Shown here: one piece after another, positions 41,368-46,881 of the stretch
How the letters are laid out: each line of letters starts with the position of its first letter
Position numbering within the stretch: the stretch's first letter is position 1
Source of the DNA: Acinetobacter baumannii
GTDB lineage: Bacteria > Pseudomonadota > Gammaproteobacteria > Pseudomonadales > Moraxellaceae
Reading direction: 5' to 3'
Assembly (NCBI RefSeq): GCF_009759685.1
Contig: NZ_CP046654.1
Location: 3,596,001-3,660,000, forward strand
Length of the DNA: 64,000 bases
Program-made: the position numbers and the translations under genes
Notes under the pieces: model-generated
Database searches by the model: none
Told to the model about the DNA's origin: nothing
What the model saw: only the letters and a program-made list of their open reading frames with translations

Positions 41368-42285
41368 ATGCCTTATTACACCATGCCCGATCAGGAAAGT
41401 TTATTTGTACGCCGTGTTGGTCGTGGTGAACCGGTATTAGTTTTATCCGGTTTAGGTATGCAAAGTTGGCAATGGCTACCTTTTATCTATGCAAATCGTA
41501 AAAAATACGAGTTTATTATTCCCGACTGGCGGGGCTTTGGCGGTTCAAAAAACTGTGCAATTCCCGAGCAAGATGCCATATCAAGCCACTGGCAAGATGT
41601 TGCTCACTTAATTGAGCAATTAAAGTTAGATAAATTTATTTTAATGGGCTACTCAATGGGAGCCACCACTGCAATGCATGGCATGAAGCATGCTCATCTC
41701 GCTCAGCAGTTAAAGGCCTATTTACATATCGATCAAACCCCTAAAATTTCAGTAGATGCTACATGGCAATATGGGTTATTTGGGCCATTACATGCCCAAT
41801 TTAAACAATTACTCAATGATATTTATCAGTTATTATCAATCCATAAAAATGCTAAATATCTTTATGAATTATCACTTCCGGACCGTCAAAAGTTGGTGCG
41901 GTTGTGGGTAGATTTTATTGAATTGCAAAGCAGCAATCCATTTAGCCCTTTTGTTTTTAAAACGGCATTAAAACAGCCCTTTTTACAAAAATATCTTCTT
42001 CCGATTCAACGTTTAGACTACTTATTTTGGTATGTCGAAAATTATCTTTTCCACAACGAGGATTATCGTGAAGCACTTCAGCAATTACAGTGCCCAACAA
42101 CTTTCTTTATTGGACGCAATTCGACACTCTATCCAGAAACGGGCCAAACCCTGATTGCACATAGTGTCGAACATGCAAAAACAATTTATTTTGAACGCTC
42201 AGGCCACACGCCATTATTAACCGAGCCAAAAAAATTCGGGCATGAAATCACTACTTTTTTATCCGAACTTAAACATGCTTCTTAA
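41368..42285 (+). CDS. Alpha/beta hydrolase
   Basis: A 305-residue alpha/beta hydrolase. It has EPVLVLSGLGMQSWQWLPF, the DWRGFGGS motif, the nucleophile elbow LMGYSMGATTAMHGM, and the histidine in RSGHTPLLTEP. The acid is probably in the FIGRNSTLYPETG region, although no clear Asp is visible there. It starts 2 nt after the PadR stop, so the two are one transcript, and probably serves lipid or ester metabolism together with fadH (inference). A strong terminator follows. Confidence 0.82.
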   Translation: MPYYTMPDQESLFVRRVGRGEPVLVLSGLGMQSWQWLPFIYANRKKYEFIIPDWRGFGGSKNCAIPEQDAISSHWQDVAHLIEQLKLDKFILMGYSMGATTAMHGMKHAHLAQQLKAYLHIDQTPKISVDATWQYGLFGPLHAQFKQLLNDIYQLLSIHKNAKYLYELSLPDRQKLVRLWVDFIELQSSNPFSPFVFKTALKQPFLQKYLLPIQRLDYLFWYVENYLFHNEDYREALQQLQCPTTFFIGRNSTLYPETGQTLIAHSVEHAKTIYFERSGHTPLLTEPKKFGHEITTFLSELKHAS

Positions 42286-42332: not shown

Positions 42333-43388
42333 TTAAGCCGAATGAGCTAATTCACTTGCTTTTAATTGTTTAGCAACATTTAACAAAAGCTGTTCAGTTT
42401 TATCCCACCCTAAACAACCGTCCGTTACCGACTGTCCATAAGTCATTTCACATGAAATCTTCTGGTTACCATCAACTAAATGGCTTTCAATCATGACACC
42501 CTTTACCTGAGTTTTTAGACGTTCAGCAACGATTTGCTGTAAAACTTCTGGCTGACGTAAAGGATCTTTACCACTGTTGCCATGACTACAGTCAATAACT
42601 AAGGCAGGTAGGTTTTGTTTGTGCTTTTCTCTAATTGCCTGAATTGAAGCCAAATCATAATTAGGACCGTGATTGGCTCCACGTAAAATCAAGTGTGGCA
42701 ATGGATTTCCAGAACTCTGAATCACTGAAGGCAAACCTTGCTGATTCATACCTAAAAATTGATGCTCATTTTGTGCAGACTGAATAGCATCTAAAGCAAT
42801 TTGAATTGAGCCATCCGTACCATTCTTGAAGCCAATACTGTATGGCATATGACTTGAGATTTCACGGTGAATCTGGGACTCACTAGTACGAGCTCCAATT
42901 GCACCCCAAGCCAATAAATCATCAAAATAGCCTGTTGCCATTGGGCTTAAAATTTCGCTCGCAATCGGCAAGCCTTTTTCAATAATTTGTAAATATAGCT
43001 CACGCGATTTTTCTAAACCTAATTGTAGATTAGATGAACCATCAAGATTTGGGTCATACATAAACCCTTTCCAACCTACTGTTGTACGCGGCTTTTCAAT
43101 ATAAGCACGCATCACAATGAAGATTTGATTTTTTACTTTTTCTTGTAATTTTTGCAATCTATCTGCGTATTCAAGTACAGCAACTGGGTCATGAATTGAA
43201 CATGGTCCTGTAATAACCATTAAGCGCTGATCTTTGCCAGCAAGAATATTTTGAATAATTTGACGATGTTCTGCAATTTGTCGTGCGAAGGTCTGCACAA
43301 GCGGGTATTTAGCTTTTAACTGAACAGGTAAACTAACTGGTGTTTCTTTTGTATTGCTTTGAGTTAGTAAAGTATTTAAGGCATTCAT
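42333..43388 (-). CDS. aroG: 3-deoxy-7-phosphoheptulonate (DAHP) synthase, type I
   Basis: A 351-residue enzyme for the first step of aromatic amino acid biosynthesis (PEP plus erythrose-4-phosphate). Visible motifs are RLMVITGPCSIHDPVAVLEY, MRAYIEKPRTTVGWKGFMYD, GARTSESQIHREISSHMP and IDCSHGNSGKDP. Whether it is the Phe-, Tyr- or Trp-sensitive isozyme (aroG/F/H) cannot be told by eye, so the gene symbol is provisional. AAGGAA lies 9-10 nt before the ATG. The 300-nt region upstream encodes two aromatic leader peptides and an intrinsic terminator, so expression is probably set by attenuation. Confidence 0.93.
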   Translation of the reverse strand: MNALNTLLTQSNTKETPVSLPVQLKAKYPLVQTFARQIAEHRQIIQNILAGKDQRLMVITGPCSIHDPVAVLEYADRLQKLQEKVKNQIFIVMRAYIEKPRTTVGWKGFMYDPNLDGSSNLQLGLEKSRELYLQIIEKGLPIASEILSPMATGYFDDLLAWGAIGARTSESQIHREISSHMPYSIGFKNGTDGSIQIALDAIQSAQNEHQFLGMNQQGLPSVIQSSGNPLPHLILRGANHGPNYDLASIQAIREKHKQNLPALVIDCSHGNSGKDPLRQPEVLQQIVAERLKTQVKGVMIESHLVDGNQKISCEMTYGQSVTDGCLGWDKTEQLLLNVAKQLKASELAHSA

Positions 43389-43402
43389 TGGTCTTTTCCT
43401 TT

Positions 43403-43423
43403 GGACTGAAACCTAATCAGTCC
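43403..43423 (-). promoter_or_regulatory. Hairpin just before the aroG ribosome site
   Basis: GGACTGA/TCAGTCC (7-bp stem, 43403-43409 with 43417-43423, 7-nt loop) lies between the leader peptide 2 stop and the aroG Shine-Dalgarno. It has no U-run, so it is not a terminator. It could tune translation of aroG after leader 2. Confidence 0.5.
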
Positions 43424-43429
43424 GATCAT

Positions 43430-43522
43430 TTATTTGAGCGTTTTGGATCTATTCGTTGGCAAAGGTAGGCAAAAGTAAAACCAATAAAAGTTGCTAAAGT
43501 ATGAATAAGTCATGTTGTTCAT
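43430..43522 (-). CDS. Leader peptide 2 of aroG, aromatic-rich
   Basis: A 30-residue frame from ATG 43522 with GAGG 8 nt upstream. Between residues 6 and 17, nine of twelve residues are aromatic (Y-S-Y-F-S-N-F-Y-W-F-Y-F). It lies downstream of the leader 1 terminator and ends 41 nt before aroG. It looks like a second ribosome-stalling sensor of Phe/Tyr/Trp charging, possibly acting on aroG translation through the hairpin at 43403. Reality as a translated peptide is inferred. Confidence 0.55.
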   Translation of the reverse strand: MNNMTYSYFSNFYWFYFCLPLPTNRSKTLK

Positions 43523-43555
43523 TTTGAAGTCCTCGATTTGAAAAAGATAAAGCAT

Positions 43556-43586
43556 AAAAAAACCTGATCGGGGTTGCCGATCAGGT
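43556..43586 (-). terminator. Attenuator terminator in the aroG leader
   Basis: CCTGATCGG/CCGATCAGG (stem 43563-43571 with 43577-43585, 5-nt loop) followed on the minus strand by seven U (43556-43562). Its 5' arm and loop hold GGCAACCCC, which can instead pair with upstream TTGCC segments, giving an antiterminator. A stalled ribosome on leader 1 would choose between them. Confidence 0.8.
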
Positions 43587-43598
43587 ATTAACTGTGAT

Positions 43599-43645
43599 GG
43601 GCAACTCTCGTGCCCGAATACGCTCAGGCAACTATCTAAATTGCC
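43599..43645 (-). promoter_or_regulatory. Competing hairpins of the aroG attenuator
   Basis: In the transcript GGCAA (43645-43641, inside leader 1 Trp-Gln codons) can pair with TTGCC (43631-43627, right after its stop). GGGCA (43615-43611) can pair with TGCCC (43603-43599). The TTGCC segments can also pair with GGCAA inside the downstream terminator. This is the usual alternating-pair layout of amino acid attenuators. Confidence 0.65.
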
Positions 43646-43688
43646 AGAAATAAAAGTAAGCGTTAGAATTCACAGATTGATTTAACAT
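43632..43688 (-). CDS. Leader peptide 1 of aroG, aromatic-rich
   Basis: An 18-residue frame from ATG 43688 (GAG about 7 nt upstream) ending ...AYFYFWQFR and TAG. Five of seven residues in the YFYFWQF run, plus the final Phe, are Phe, Tyr or Trp. It is followed by alternating hairpins and an intrinsic terminator. This is the arrangement of a transcription-attenuation leader that senses all three aromatic amino acids, in front of the enzyme that starts their synthesis. Confidence 0.75.
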   Translation of the reverse strand: MLNQSVNSNAYFYFWQFR

Positions 43689-43724
43689 CTTTATCTCAAA
43701 TATTAAAAAATGTTCCTTAAATCT

Positions 43725-43753
43725 AAAATACGCATTGTTGATGACTTTGACAA
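43725..43753 (-). promoter_or_regulatory. Sigma-70 promoter of the aroG leader
   Basis: On the minus strand, TTGTCA (43753-43748) and TATTTT (43730-43725) are separated by 17 nt. Transcription would start about 7-10 nt later, roughly 30 nt before leader peptide 1. Confidence 0.6.
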
Positions 43754-43815
43754 GTATTTTTTGCAAAAAAAATTGCTTATTTTTTCACTTAAAATTTAAT
43801 TGAACACTTTCAGAA

Positions 43816-44181: not shown

Positions 44182-46458
44182 TTAAGCTGGTTCTGCCGTA
44201 TGGTGATCTTCAAACACTTCAAGTTTTAGACCCACTGCTTTACCATCTTCTTTCTTCACTGATACCGCCACATTACCGCCATGATCTGCAAGTTCACCAA
44301 ACAAAATCATTTCAGCTAATGGTTTCTTCAAGTGTTCTTGAATGAGTCGTTGCATTGGTCGAGCGCCCATTAAACGATCATAACCATTTGTCGCTAACCA
44401 GTCGCGTGCACTTTGATCGACATCTAAAACTACGCGTTTTTCATCTAGCTGCGCTTGCAATTCTGTCAAGAACTTATCAACTACAGATTCAATCACTGTG
44501 GTTGGTAAAGCTTTGAATTGAATAACACCATCTAGACGGTTACGGAATTCAGGTGAGAATGCACGTTTCATGGCTTCTTGGTTGTCCGAACTATGGTCTT
44601 GCTCTGTAAATCCAATGCTTGCACGAGAAATACTTTCTGCACCAATGTTCGTCGTCAACACAATAATGACATTTCTAAAGTCTGACTTACGACCATTATT
44701 GTCTGTTAATGCACCATGATCCATGATTTGCAACAACAGGTTAAACACATCAGGATGTGCTTTCTCAATTTCATCCAGTAACAATACACAGTGTGGATTT
44801 TTATGAATCGCATCTGTGAGTAAGCCACCTTGGTCATAACCTACATAGCCTGGAGGAGCACCAATTAAGCGAGAAACAGCGTGACGCTCCATATACTCAG
44901 ACATATCGAAACGAACAAGCTCTACACCTAAAAGTTTTGCTAATTGCTTCGTAACCTCAGTTTTACCTACACCGGTAGGACCAGCAAACACAAAGCTACC
45001 AACTGGTTTATCCGGCGATTTCAAACCAGCACGTGACAACTTGATTGCAGAAGCTAGTGCAGTAATTGCTTCATCTTGACCAAATACAACACGTTTTAGG
45101 TCACGCTCAAGATTTTCAAGTACAGATTTATCATCTTTAGATACAGTTTTAGGCGGAATACGCGCAATCTTAGAAACGATATCTTCGATGTTCTCTACAG
45201 TAATTAAGCTGTCTTCACTTTCTGCTTTTAGACGGCGCTGTGCACCTGCTTCATCAATGACATCAATCGCTTTATCTGGCAAGAAACGATCATTAATAAA
45301 TTTCGCAGAAAGCTCAACCGCAGAAACCAAAGCTTTGTCGTCATACTGTACATGGTGGAAATCTTCAAACTTCGTTTTCAAGCCACGTAAAATATCAATA
45401 GTTTCAGAAATGCTCGGTTCATTTACATCAATTTTTTGGAAACGACGAGATAACGCATGATCCTTTTCAAATACCTGACGATATTCTTGGAACGTTGTTG
45501 ATCCAATGCAGCGTAAAGTACCATTTGCTAAAGCTGGTTTGATGAGATTCGAAGCATCCATCGTACTGCCCATACTAGAGCCTGCACCAATGATCATATG
45601 AATTTCATCAATGAATAAAATCGCATTCGGATTTTTCTTCAAAGCGTTTAACAATTGTTTTAAACGTTTTTCAAAGTCACCACGATATTTTGTACCCGCA
45701 ACCAATGCACCAATATCAAGGCTGTAAATTTCTGCATGGCTTAGCGGTTTTGGTGCTTTACCATTTACAATGAGCCATGCAAGGCCTTCTGCAATTGAAG
45801 TTTTACCTACACCCGGGTCGCCTACCAACAATGGATTGTTTTTACGACGACGGCAAAGAATTTGTGCTGTACGCTCAATTTCTTTCTCACGACCAATGAG
45901 TGGATCAGTTTTACCTTTTTGCGCTTCAACATTTAAATTGAGCGTATAAAGTTCTAATGGTCCGGCATTGCCTGAATTGCTTTCACCCTCAATGTCTTCA
46001 ACTTCTTCTTCAACCTGAACTTCGTCTTTACGTGTCCCATGAGACAAGTATTGAGTTAAAGTCAATCGATTAATTTGATGACGTTTAAGCAGATAAACAG
46101 CAAAAGAATCACGCTCTGAATACATTGCGACCAAAACATCCGCACCTTCAACAGTACGGTCACCACCACTCGATTGAACGTGGAAAATTGCACGTTGCAA
46201 AATGCGGTCGAAACTTTCTGTTGGATGTGGAGCTTGCTCGCTATTTTCGCCAAGCTTAGGAGTATGTTGTTCTACATATTCTTCTAATTCTTTACGTAAA
46301 GAAACAATATCAGCTCCGCATGCTTTTAATGCATTCACAGCCGAATCGTTATCGAGTAAGGCTAATAGTAAATGTTCAACTGTAAGAAACTCATGTCTCT
46401 TTTGACGAGCCATGCTAACAGCCAAACGTAATGATACTTCTAATTGACGACTGAGCAT
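44182..46458 (-). CDS. clpA: ATP-dependent Clp protease ATP-binding subunit ClpA
   Basis: A 758-residue AAA+ unfoldase that feeds ClpP. The N-terminal Clp domain (about 1-145, [20 protein letters not shown]) is followed by two ATPase domains with Walker [13 protein letters not shown] (about 213) and [13 protein letters not shown] (about 490), Walker [11 protein letters not shown] and [11 protein letters not shown]. Without a ClpB-type middle coiled-coil domain it is ClpA. It follows clpS by 9 nt, the standard pairing, with GGGGG before its ATG. ClpS directs it to N-end-rule substrates. Confidence 0.96.
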
Positions 46459-46467
46459 GTGACCCCC

Positions 46468-46881
46468 TTATGCTTTAGGCTCAATCTGGCAAAGTAATGG
46501 ATGACCTTGCGATCGAGCGTAATTATTAACAAGGTTTGCCTTGGTTTCCGCGATGTCTCTTGGATATACCCCGGCAGTACCTTTACCTTCATAGTGTACT
46601 GTTAGCATTACTTGAGTTGCTTGGTCAAGATTCATTGCAAAGTATTGTTGTAAAATTTCAATTACAAAGTCCATTGGCGTGTAATCGTCATTCAATAATA
46701 CCACTGCATACAAGGGAGGACGCTTGAGTTCGGGAGGTGCTGTTTGCACAACAACCTCTCCGTCATGATCTTCGTTTTGCGAATCACTTAAGCGTGGATT
46801 GAAGTGCCAATCGACATAGCCAGACTGCTGAAAAGAAGCCTTAATATCTTTTAAATTTGTTTGACGCTTATTTGTTCGCAT
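46468..46881 (-). CDS. clpS: ClpS adaptor of the ClpAP protease
   Basis: A 137-residue adaptor that binds N-degron substrates and hands them to ClpA. The core has [20 protein letters not shown] (with the DDYTPM substrate pocket) and [20 protein letters not shown]. The first 55 or so residues ([19 protein letters not shown]) are longer than in E. coli ClpS (about 106 residues in total). Other start codons inside are possible, but the ATG at 46881 is the only in-frame ATG before the core. Confidence 0.93.

Follow-up and report, generated by a model that had tools for sequence, protein, structure and literature searches.

The window, by which we mean the whole 64,000-nucleotide stretch of DNA that was analysed, comes from a genome of 3.99 Mb belonging to the Acinetobacter calcoaceticus-baumannii (Acb) complex, a placement made because its DAHP synthase is 98% identical to the A. 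nosocomialis counterpart. The gene for this enzyme lies on the minus strand at 42333-43388 and encodes a type I DAHP synthase of 351 residues (aroG/aroF type), as judged by PF00793 (E = 4.5e-77) and the NCBIfam model aroFGH (421 bits). DAHP synthase catalyses the first step on the route to every aromatic amino acid, and in enterobacteria its isoenzymes are under the control of the repressors TyrR and TrpR. An earlier note on this DNA had labelled the gene aroG; the type I assignment stands, but the protein misses the AroG equivalog cut-off (354 versus 568 bits), and aroG is therefore a working name only. A second DAHP synthase, 49% identical to this one, is encoded elsewhere in the same genome. 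The gene in the window, like those of most relatives, has its own Shine-Dalgarno sequence (AAAGGA, 43397-43402, minus strand). A gap of 427 bp separates it from a YnfA-family gene upstream, and a convergent neighbour occupies 41368-42285 on the plus strand. Upstream of the YnfA-family gene are two adjacent ORFs of 758 and 137 residues (44182-46881, minus strand), which we take to be ClpA-like and ClpS-like.

Every part of the transcription attenuator that the earlier note had described in front of the DAHP synthase gene is present where it had been placed, on the minus strand. To judge conservation we used 86 loci: the window, 65 named Acinetobacter loci and 20 deep loci, the last being the lowest-scoring window-type genes (55-72% identical) listed for the genus in a search of 299 genomes of the family. 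Two loci (L094 and L100) repeat the contigs of L061 and L063, so that the 86 loci represent 84 genomes. The putative promoter (TTGTCA-17 nt-TATTTT, 43725-43753), which had been called sigma-70-like, is present and conserved: a site of the form TTG[TC][CA]A, a spacer of 15-19 and TANNNT was found in 63 of 66 loci, with a spacer of 17 in all 63. By itself it does not rise above chance, there being six promoter-like sites between 43000 and 44200 against 4.0 (sd 2.0) in shuffles, and the case for this candidate rests on conservation.

Downstream of the putative promoter, leader peptide 1 (LP1, MLNQSVNSNAYFYFWQFR, 43632-43688, minus strand) was found in all 86 loci, or 84 genomes. It is a short upstream ORF with a cluster of pathway codons, its translation being predicted. 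Both the length of 18 residues and the YFYFWQF motif are as the earlier note had them, but an Arg follows the motif, so the peptide does not end there. Phe, Tyr and Trp are all present in LP1 in 85 of 85 scored loci, and are visible in the 86th (L064); the mean aromatic content is 33%. Calculated from a large number of non-independent pairs, equal in length and 70-99% identical, pN/pS for LP1 was 0.26 in frame against 1.28 and 1.18 in the other frames (951 pairs). By this measure LP1 evolves as a coding frame, with coding-type selection in its own frame only.

The RNA in and behind LP1 contains six segments that can pair in two mutually exclusive ways (all coordinates on the minus strand). Segment 1 (GGCAA, 43641-43645) overlaps the Trp-Gln codons of LP1 and pairs with segment 2 (GTTGCCTGA, 43624-43632), which shares its first base with the end of the LP1 stop codon and contains the TTGCC partner of GGCAA at 43631-43627. 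Segment 2 can instead pair with segment 3 (TCGGGCA, 43611-43617, with GGGCA at 43615-43611), and segment 3 in turn with segment 4 (GTTGCCC, 43599-43605, with TGCCC at 43603-43599). Segments 5 and 6 make up the stem ACCTGATCGG-CAACC-CCGATCAGGT (43562-43586), whose 10 bp and T7 tract (43556-43562) constitute an intrinsic terminator between the leader ORF and the gene. The antiterminator consists of GTTGCC of segment 4 and GGCAAC of segment 5 (43578-43573), so that 2:3 and 4:5 stand against 1:2, 3:4 and 5:6. Between 43000 and 44200 there are four terminator-like sites, compared with 0.6 in shuffles. The strong terminator with seven U that had been reported (stem 43586-43562 plus T7) recurs in the same place in all 86 loci; its strict pattern is matched in 66 of 66 and in 15 of the 20 deep loci, the other five having variant stems. 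On the opposite strand, an Rfam search returned a weak match to the Hrs10 sRNA (43551-43631, plus strand; 27 bits against a gathering score of 108, E = 8e-4), which is probably due to the inverted repeat of the terminator.

Both sets of stems are kept across the relatives, including the competing hairpins GGCAA/TTGCC and GGGCA/TGCCC named in the earlier note. In an alignment of 51 rows, 98.4% of cells were standard pairs for the terminator-state stems (1:2, 3:4, 5:6) and 97.1% for the antiterminator-state stems (2:3, 4:5); sliding the partners by 1-3 columns lowered these figures to 20-49% and 28-58%, respectively. Taken one by one, helix 1:2 was paired in 94.5%, 2:3 in 96.1%, 3:4 in 99.6%, 4:5 in 98-99% and the terminator in 99.8%. 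Compensatory changes, which had been proposed as a check, were seen at two pairs of 2:3 and at three pairs of the terminator, but not in 1:2, 3:4 or 4:5. Counted as cells, double changes numbered 12 in the terminator state (shuffle mean 2.5, reached by 0 of 500 shuffles) and 9 in the antiterminator state (shuffle mean 4.1, reached by 2 of 500); counted as pairs, they numbered three (reached by 26 of 500) and two (reached by 304 of 500). Most pairs of this element scarcely vary, as two overlapping structures would require, and its covariation is thus modest.

We infer the signal and the direction of control from this arrangement. When the aromatic tRNAs are uncharged, a ribosome would stall on the Tyr-Phe-Tyr-Phe-Trp codons of LP1 and cover segment 1; segments 2 and 3 would then pair and leave 4 free for 5, and the resulting antiterminator would block the terminator, letting RNA polymerase continue. 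With charged tRNAs, the ribosome would reach the LP1 stop, 2:3 would be blocked, 3:4 would form and the terminator would end transcription. In a crude equilibrium simulation, in which RNA up to segment 5 was folded with a masked ribosome and a stall meant codons up to Trp, the mean probability of the antiterminator over 85 loci was 0.89 for a stalled ribosome, 0.43 for one at the stop and 0.58 for RNA free of ribosomes. In 60 of 85 loci the stalled state exceeded the stop state by over 0.1 (the stop state was higher in one), and in 56 of 85 it exceeded the ribosome-free state. For the window itself the values were 1.00, 0.96 and 0.88, which amounts to no discrimination. LP1 is very probably a ribosome-mediated transcription attenuator of his-leader architecture, to judge by sequence comparison, and we refer to it as gate 1. 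The proposal of transcription attenuation by a Phe/Tyr/Trp leader has held up well: the suggested search of other Acinetobacter genomes recovered leader and terminator in 86 of 86 loci, with the aromatic codons conserved in them and the alternating stems in the 51 that were aligned.

How far this element extends was examined with a covariance model. Of the 126 genomes of the genus, 124 had a single hit (E up to 0.001), and the two genomes without a hit carry only a DAHP synthase about 51% identical to that of the window. The family-wide search (299 genomes), run with stricter filters under which weak matches are lost, returned one weak match in the other 173 genomes of the family (G102, E = 9e-5). 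This match was rejected as an unrelated terminator; none of the ATG ORFs listed there is rich in aromatic residues. Within the genome of the window the model gave seven hits at E up to 10, the true one at 1.6e-23 and the next at 0.04. One of them (L110) overlaps the LP1 element itself on the other strand, and none of L108, L109, L111, L112 and L113 has an aromatic leader before a gene; L108 does lie near a Phe-rich ORF of 16 codons, but the match is antisense within an open frame of 204 codons. Furthermore, no LP1-like peptide was present within 500 nt upstream of 20 DAHP synthases of the other kind (45-51% identical; L067-L086), drawn from the same genome, the two genus members without the window type and 17 loci of 15 other genera. 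In this sample, the LP1 element appears to be single-copy and confined to one DAHP synthase type of one genus. No Rfam family reached its gathering score anywhere in the window, and within 43340-43800 even a limit of E = 5 brought up none of the amino-acid leader families. Two further observations concern the other DAHP synthases: upstream of one of the other kind (L069) there is a TTG ORF with 6 of 8 aromatic residues, and in the 299-genome search five genomes of one other genus had two DAHP synthase matches listed and nine genomes had none.

The arrangement just described had been called the full layout, but it is incomplete: a second aromatic ORF, overlooked at the time, lies after the terminator and directly before the DAHP synthase gene. 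This ORF, leader peptide 2 (LP2, MNNMTYSYFSNFYWFYFCLPLPTNRSKTLK, 43430-43522, minus strand), is preceded by a Shine-Dalgarno-like GAGGA (43530-43534), which is of the GGAG type in most relatives. The earlier remark that the leader is too short for ordinary gene callers holds for LP1 and LP2 alike. LP2 is intact in 85 of 86 loci, a count that covers these 86 loci only; the sole exception, L064, is frameshifted in a draft assembly and may be a real loss or a sequencing error. The mean aromatic content of LP2 is 27%, with Trp missing in 9 of 85 loci, and pN/pS was 0.41 in frame against 1.07 and 0.75 in the other frames (453 pairs), again indicating coding-type selection. The 64 kb contain just two ATG ORFs of 10-45 residues in which 6 or more of 8 residues are aromatic, namely LP1 and LP2; 15 Markov sequences contained 0.93 such ORFs per window, and at a threshold of at least 5 of 8 the window had 11 against 6.3. 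A single aromatic ORF is thus unremarkable; two of them in the 300 bp before a DAHP synthase, throughout the genus, are not.

Does LP2 matter at all? The his, phe and trp systems are regulated with a single leader. LP1 could likewise be the sole regulator, explaining the regulation unaided as aroR does in the account of Corynebacterium glutamicum given in PMC11802643; LP2 would then be a translated relic or spacer and the hairpin behind it (P2, described below) would only insulate the ribosome-binding site of the gene. The strong divergence of LP2 sequence in the deepest loci agrees with this. A relic would decay, however, and an aromatic ORF kept in 85 of 86 loci with the pN/pS given above and a conserved rare-codon pattern makes such a role unlikely. 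That pattern is seen in the 43 loci with a 30-codon LP2, where Arg25 is AGA in 40, Leu29 is CTC in 37 and Tyr16 is TAC in 42; in the DAHP synthase genes AGA accounts for 5% of the codons for Arg, CTC for 5% of those for Leu and TAC for 28% of those for Tyr. Because the rare AGA and CTC codons are kept, the third letters of LP2 are not free, which points to an RNA-level role or a slow-codon effect. A motif TAGAYC..GCTCAAATAAA.GATCGGAC at and after the end of LP2 (43451-43420, minus strand) is likewise found in many relatives and kept despite the rare AGA and CTC.

These codon data also bear on what LP2 might sense. If it were a sequence-specific arrest peptide of the TnaC kind, it would respond to free aromatic amino acids and not to tRNA charging. 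A pattern of the kind YF[SG]..(.)WF[YN]F is indeed kept in 63 of 85 loci, as an arrest peptide would lead one to expect. In the deepest loci (L087-L100), though, the pattern is gone while the aromatic richness stays, and part of the conservation is at the codon level (TAC, AGA, CTC), which fits a role of the RNA better than one of the peptide; we consider an arrest peptide highly improbable. LP2 instead has the form of the upstream ORF of a translational attenuator with a conserved stall-prone cluster, its translation and stalling being predicted.

The position of LP2 relative to the gene was measured in 85 loci. Its stop codon lies between -25 and +45 nt from the gene start: four loci overlap by 25 nt, six have 8-17 nt and 75 have 25-45 nt. 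The overlap in four loci and the short spacing in six suit coupling or occlusion just as well, which tells against the second gate proposed below. In L087-L090, LP2 has 40-55 codons and runs 25 nt into the gene in a different frame, and the gene has no obvious Shine-Dalgarno. From the last aromatic codon of the LP2 cluster to the gene start the distance is 53-110 nt, which suffices for a stalled and an initiating ribosome simultaneously. There is no terminator-like site on the minus strand from 43561 to 43000; P2 is followed by AAAGGA and not by a U tract, and LP2 therefore does not control a second terminator such as that of mgtCBR.

Between the LP2 stop and the gene Shine-Dalgarno lies the P2 hairpin (GGACTG/CAGTCC, 43403-43423, minus strand), and comparison of the loci argues strongly for it. 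It was paired in 98.6% of cells (63 rows, with three gapped deep rows uncounted), and double changes occurred at three pairs in 4 cells, as many such pairs being found in 1 of 500 shuffles; no shuffle out of 500 reached the covariation score. Of the 75 loci whose gap measures 20 nt or more, 72 have a stem of 4 bp or longer near the Shine-Dalgarno (20.9 in mononucleotide shuffles) and 61 have one of 6 bp or longer (3.4 in such shuffles); the remaining 10 of 85 loci have no room for P2. Among the 22 arm pairs listed, most have the GGACTG core with longer or shorter ends, and others are GGGCTG/CAGCCC, GAGCA/TGCTC, GGGT/ACCC, GGGCAG/TTGCCC and GGATTGCGA/TTGCAATCC. A blind scan of all column pairs in 34 less redundant rows placed P2 first among the 40 helices listed, while helix 2:3 came fourth, 1:2 seventh and the terminator ninth; 3:4 and 4:5 were absent from these 40, and the A/T-rich matches in the list were taken for chance. 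RNAalifold returned no consensus structure for the LP2-to-gene alignment, and pair counts on named helices were used in its place.

A terminator-like site on the plus strand at 43401-43425 corresponds to the complement of P2 and the AT-rich stretch that follows it there. P2 with its preceding AT-rich stretch might accordingly act as an antisense terminator for the plus strand, given the convergent neighbour at 41368-42285, and this would explain the nucleotide conservation at the end of LP2. The T-rich stretch TCATTTATTT is interrupted, however, and so makes a poor tract, and part of it is the context of the LP2 stop, kept for coding reasons; an antisense terminator is on this evidence quite improbable.

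How could LP2 act on translation? In the window, its Phe-Tyr-Trp-Phe codons (TTTATTGGTTTT, 43477-43488, minus strand) can form 12 bp with the gene start (AAGACCAATGAA, 43395-43384). This sequestering pairing is stronger than in shuffles in the Acb complex and shows no covariation across the genus; as a genus-wide element it was rejected, being clade-specific. P2 takes no part in this proposed pairing, which leaves the hairpin unexplained. A second candidate, P1, with its 5' arm TACTTTAGC in LP2 codons 8-10 (43493-43501) and a possible partner GCTCAAATA at 43439-43431, crosses the sequestering helix of the window and would have made a two-state switch. It was rejected, as 97 of 500 shuffles reached its covariation score; its sequence is conserved, and we keep it as unexplained conservation.

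Folding of the region around the gene start gave results that differ between clades. With downstream RNA only (65 loci), a stall raised the mean accessibility of the gene start from 0.37 to 0.63, the rise being greater than 0.1 in 50 loci, within 0.1 in 13 and replaced by a fall in two. With upstream RNA allowed, the means over 85 loci were 0.42 free, 0.56 stalled and 0.40 with the ribosome at the stop; the stalled state beat both others by more than 0.05 in 31 of 85 and fell below the free state in six. The Acb complex (11 loci) gave 0.16, 0.66 and 0.18 for the free, stalled and stop states, the loci with a 34-codon LP2 (20) 0.30, 0.54 and 0.34, the haemolyticus-type loci (22) 0.50, 0.48 and 0.35, the deep loci (14) 0.55, 0.57 and 0.59, and 18 other loci 0.50, 0.59 and 0.53. 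A stall thus has a large effect in the Acb complex, a clear one with the 34-codon LP2 and a small one in the 18 others, and relative to free RNA it has none in the haemolyticus-type and deep loci. Of 65 loci, 22 have a real LP2 that hides the start more effectively than 95% of its dinucleotide shuffles, and 43 do not; against random synonymous recoding the number is 10 of 65. Given this low count against recoding, it is the Phe-Tyr-Trp-Phe amino-acid sequence that supplies most of the complementarity. In the 65-locus foldings and shuffle tests, the gene start of L020 was wrongly set 15 nt after LP2; the distances, the 85-locus folding and the P2 stem counts use the correct 42 nt.

These results can be read as a second gate, at translation. 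Transcripts that read through the terminator carry LP2, and without a stall its codons would fold onto the DAHP synthase start; if a ribosome stalled at Tyr-Trp-Phe-Tyr-Phe, which lies 53-110 nt upstream, the start would stay open. Transcripts that leak through in times of plenty would thus be poorly translated and those made under starvation well translated, and in this stall-opens-start model both gates are of the same sign. That LP2 is a second gate of this kind we regard as an evenly balanced proposal.

The strongest rival for LP2 is termination-reinitiation, because the LP2 stop sits close to or inside the gene start in each of the 85 loci. Ribosomes finishing LP2 would restart on DAHP synthase, with P2 bringing the LP2 stop beside the Shine-Dalgarno; LP2 would then serve to raise or couple translation, and a ribosome stalled within it would have the opposite effect. 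The distances of -25 to +45 nt suit such restarting, as does a hairpin of at least 4 bp filling the gap in 72 of 75 loci, and Korolev et al. 2016 propose reinitiation for leader genes near structural genes, stalling at the regulatory codons decreasing it (PMC4833913). On the other hand, reinitiation would shut the enzyme off in the same starvation that opens gate 1, and it gives no reason for an LP2 that is 27% aromatic. In addition, the 75 of 85 loci at 25-45 nt lie beyond the peak of 10-11 bp described there for leader-stop distances in Actinobacteria (PMC4833913), and the gene has a Shine-Dalgarno of its own in the window and most relatives. We therefore place reinitiation, and with it a stall that lowers translation, on the unlikely side, as a minority prospect.

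Returning to the stall-opens-start model, we think it somewhat probable that charged Phe, Tyr and Trp tRNAs are sensed before DAHP synthase by two gates in series, each operated by a ribosome. A more specific form of this proposal is tentative and falls a little short of even: a single leader would read the same signal twice, LP1 setting passage of the terminator and LP2 access to the start, as a genus-wide two-stage attenuator whose tightness is multiplicative. Part of that same form is that, in some clades, the LP2 control codons would themselves cover the gene start. An attenuator with Phe, Tyr and Trp codons at DAHP synthase is a simple way to sense all end products together. Two leaders reading the same signal, one before and one after the terminator, would be a neat natural experiment on whether attenuation at transcription and at translation is combined to make control tighter. 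Searches of open-access literature turned up no account of this Acinetobacter leader; subscription papers lie outside this coverage and may contain an earlier description. In two transcriptome papers on Acinetobacter (PMC11472050, PMC5094136) the main text mentions neither 'aroG' nor a leader peptide, and neither Acinetobacter nor aroG occurs in the available text of a survey of premature terminators (PMC2965389) or of the reinitiation paper (PMC4833913).

Finally, we compared the locus with known leaders. The closest architecture is that of hisL. In the enterobacterial his leader, six segments A-F form A:B, C:D and E:F or, alternatively, B:C and D:E. The Acinetobacter leader shares with it a leader ORF rich in pathway codons, three consecutive hairpins set against two alternative ones and a terminator before the first gene; it differs in having aromatic and not His codons, a single gene behind it and a second leader ORF after the terminator. 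The LP1 element also has no match to any Rfam amino-acid leader family. Among DAHP synthase genes, aroR-aroF of C. glutamicum (Neshat et al. 2014, as described in PMC11802643) has a leader peptide with Phe-Tyr-Phe, at which ribosome stalling under Phe limitation enhances transcription while Tyr availability has no effect (PMC11802643). LP1 resembles aroR as an aromatic leader before DAHP synthase, but aroR is actinobacterial and one leader is described for it, whereas Acinetobacter has two leaders, with Phe, Tyr and Trp codons together. In Vibrio species, gammaproteobacteria like Acinetobacter, database-predicted attenuators precede a DAHP synthase-tyrA operon (PMC1173090); these share a predicted attenuator before DAHP synthase, but they are predictions only, in another operon, and the description given there includes no leader peptide.

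For the pairing of two leaders, the nearest case is Salmonella mgtCBR, whose tandem attenuators mgtM and mgtP are called a singular example for different signals (PMC3641672). As in mgtM/mgtP, two short ORFs stand in series in one leader. The signals of mgtM and mgtP, as described in that source, are different (ATP and proline-charged tRNA) and both act on transcription (PMC3641672), whereas LP1 and LP2 are both rich in the same aromatic codons and no terminator lies behind the second ORF. Two leader peptides, ermBL and ermBL2, take part in translational attenuation of ermB (PMC8274638), and mgtQ works through alternative RNA structures (PMC8092293). The predicted action of LP2 resembles these cases in that translation of a short upstream ORF affects that of the downstream gene. 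Their triggers are erythromycin or acidic residues, and the switch at LP2 is a predicted one, in some clades only. The probable LP1 attenuator belongs to a known kind, and the pair of LP1 and LP2 is a variation on it.
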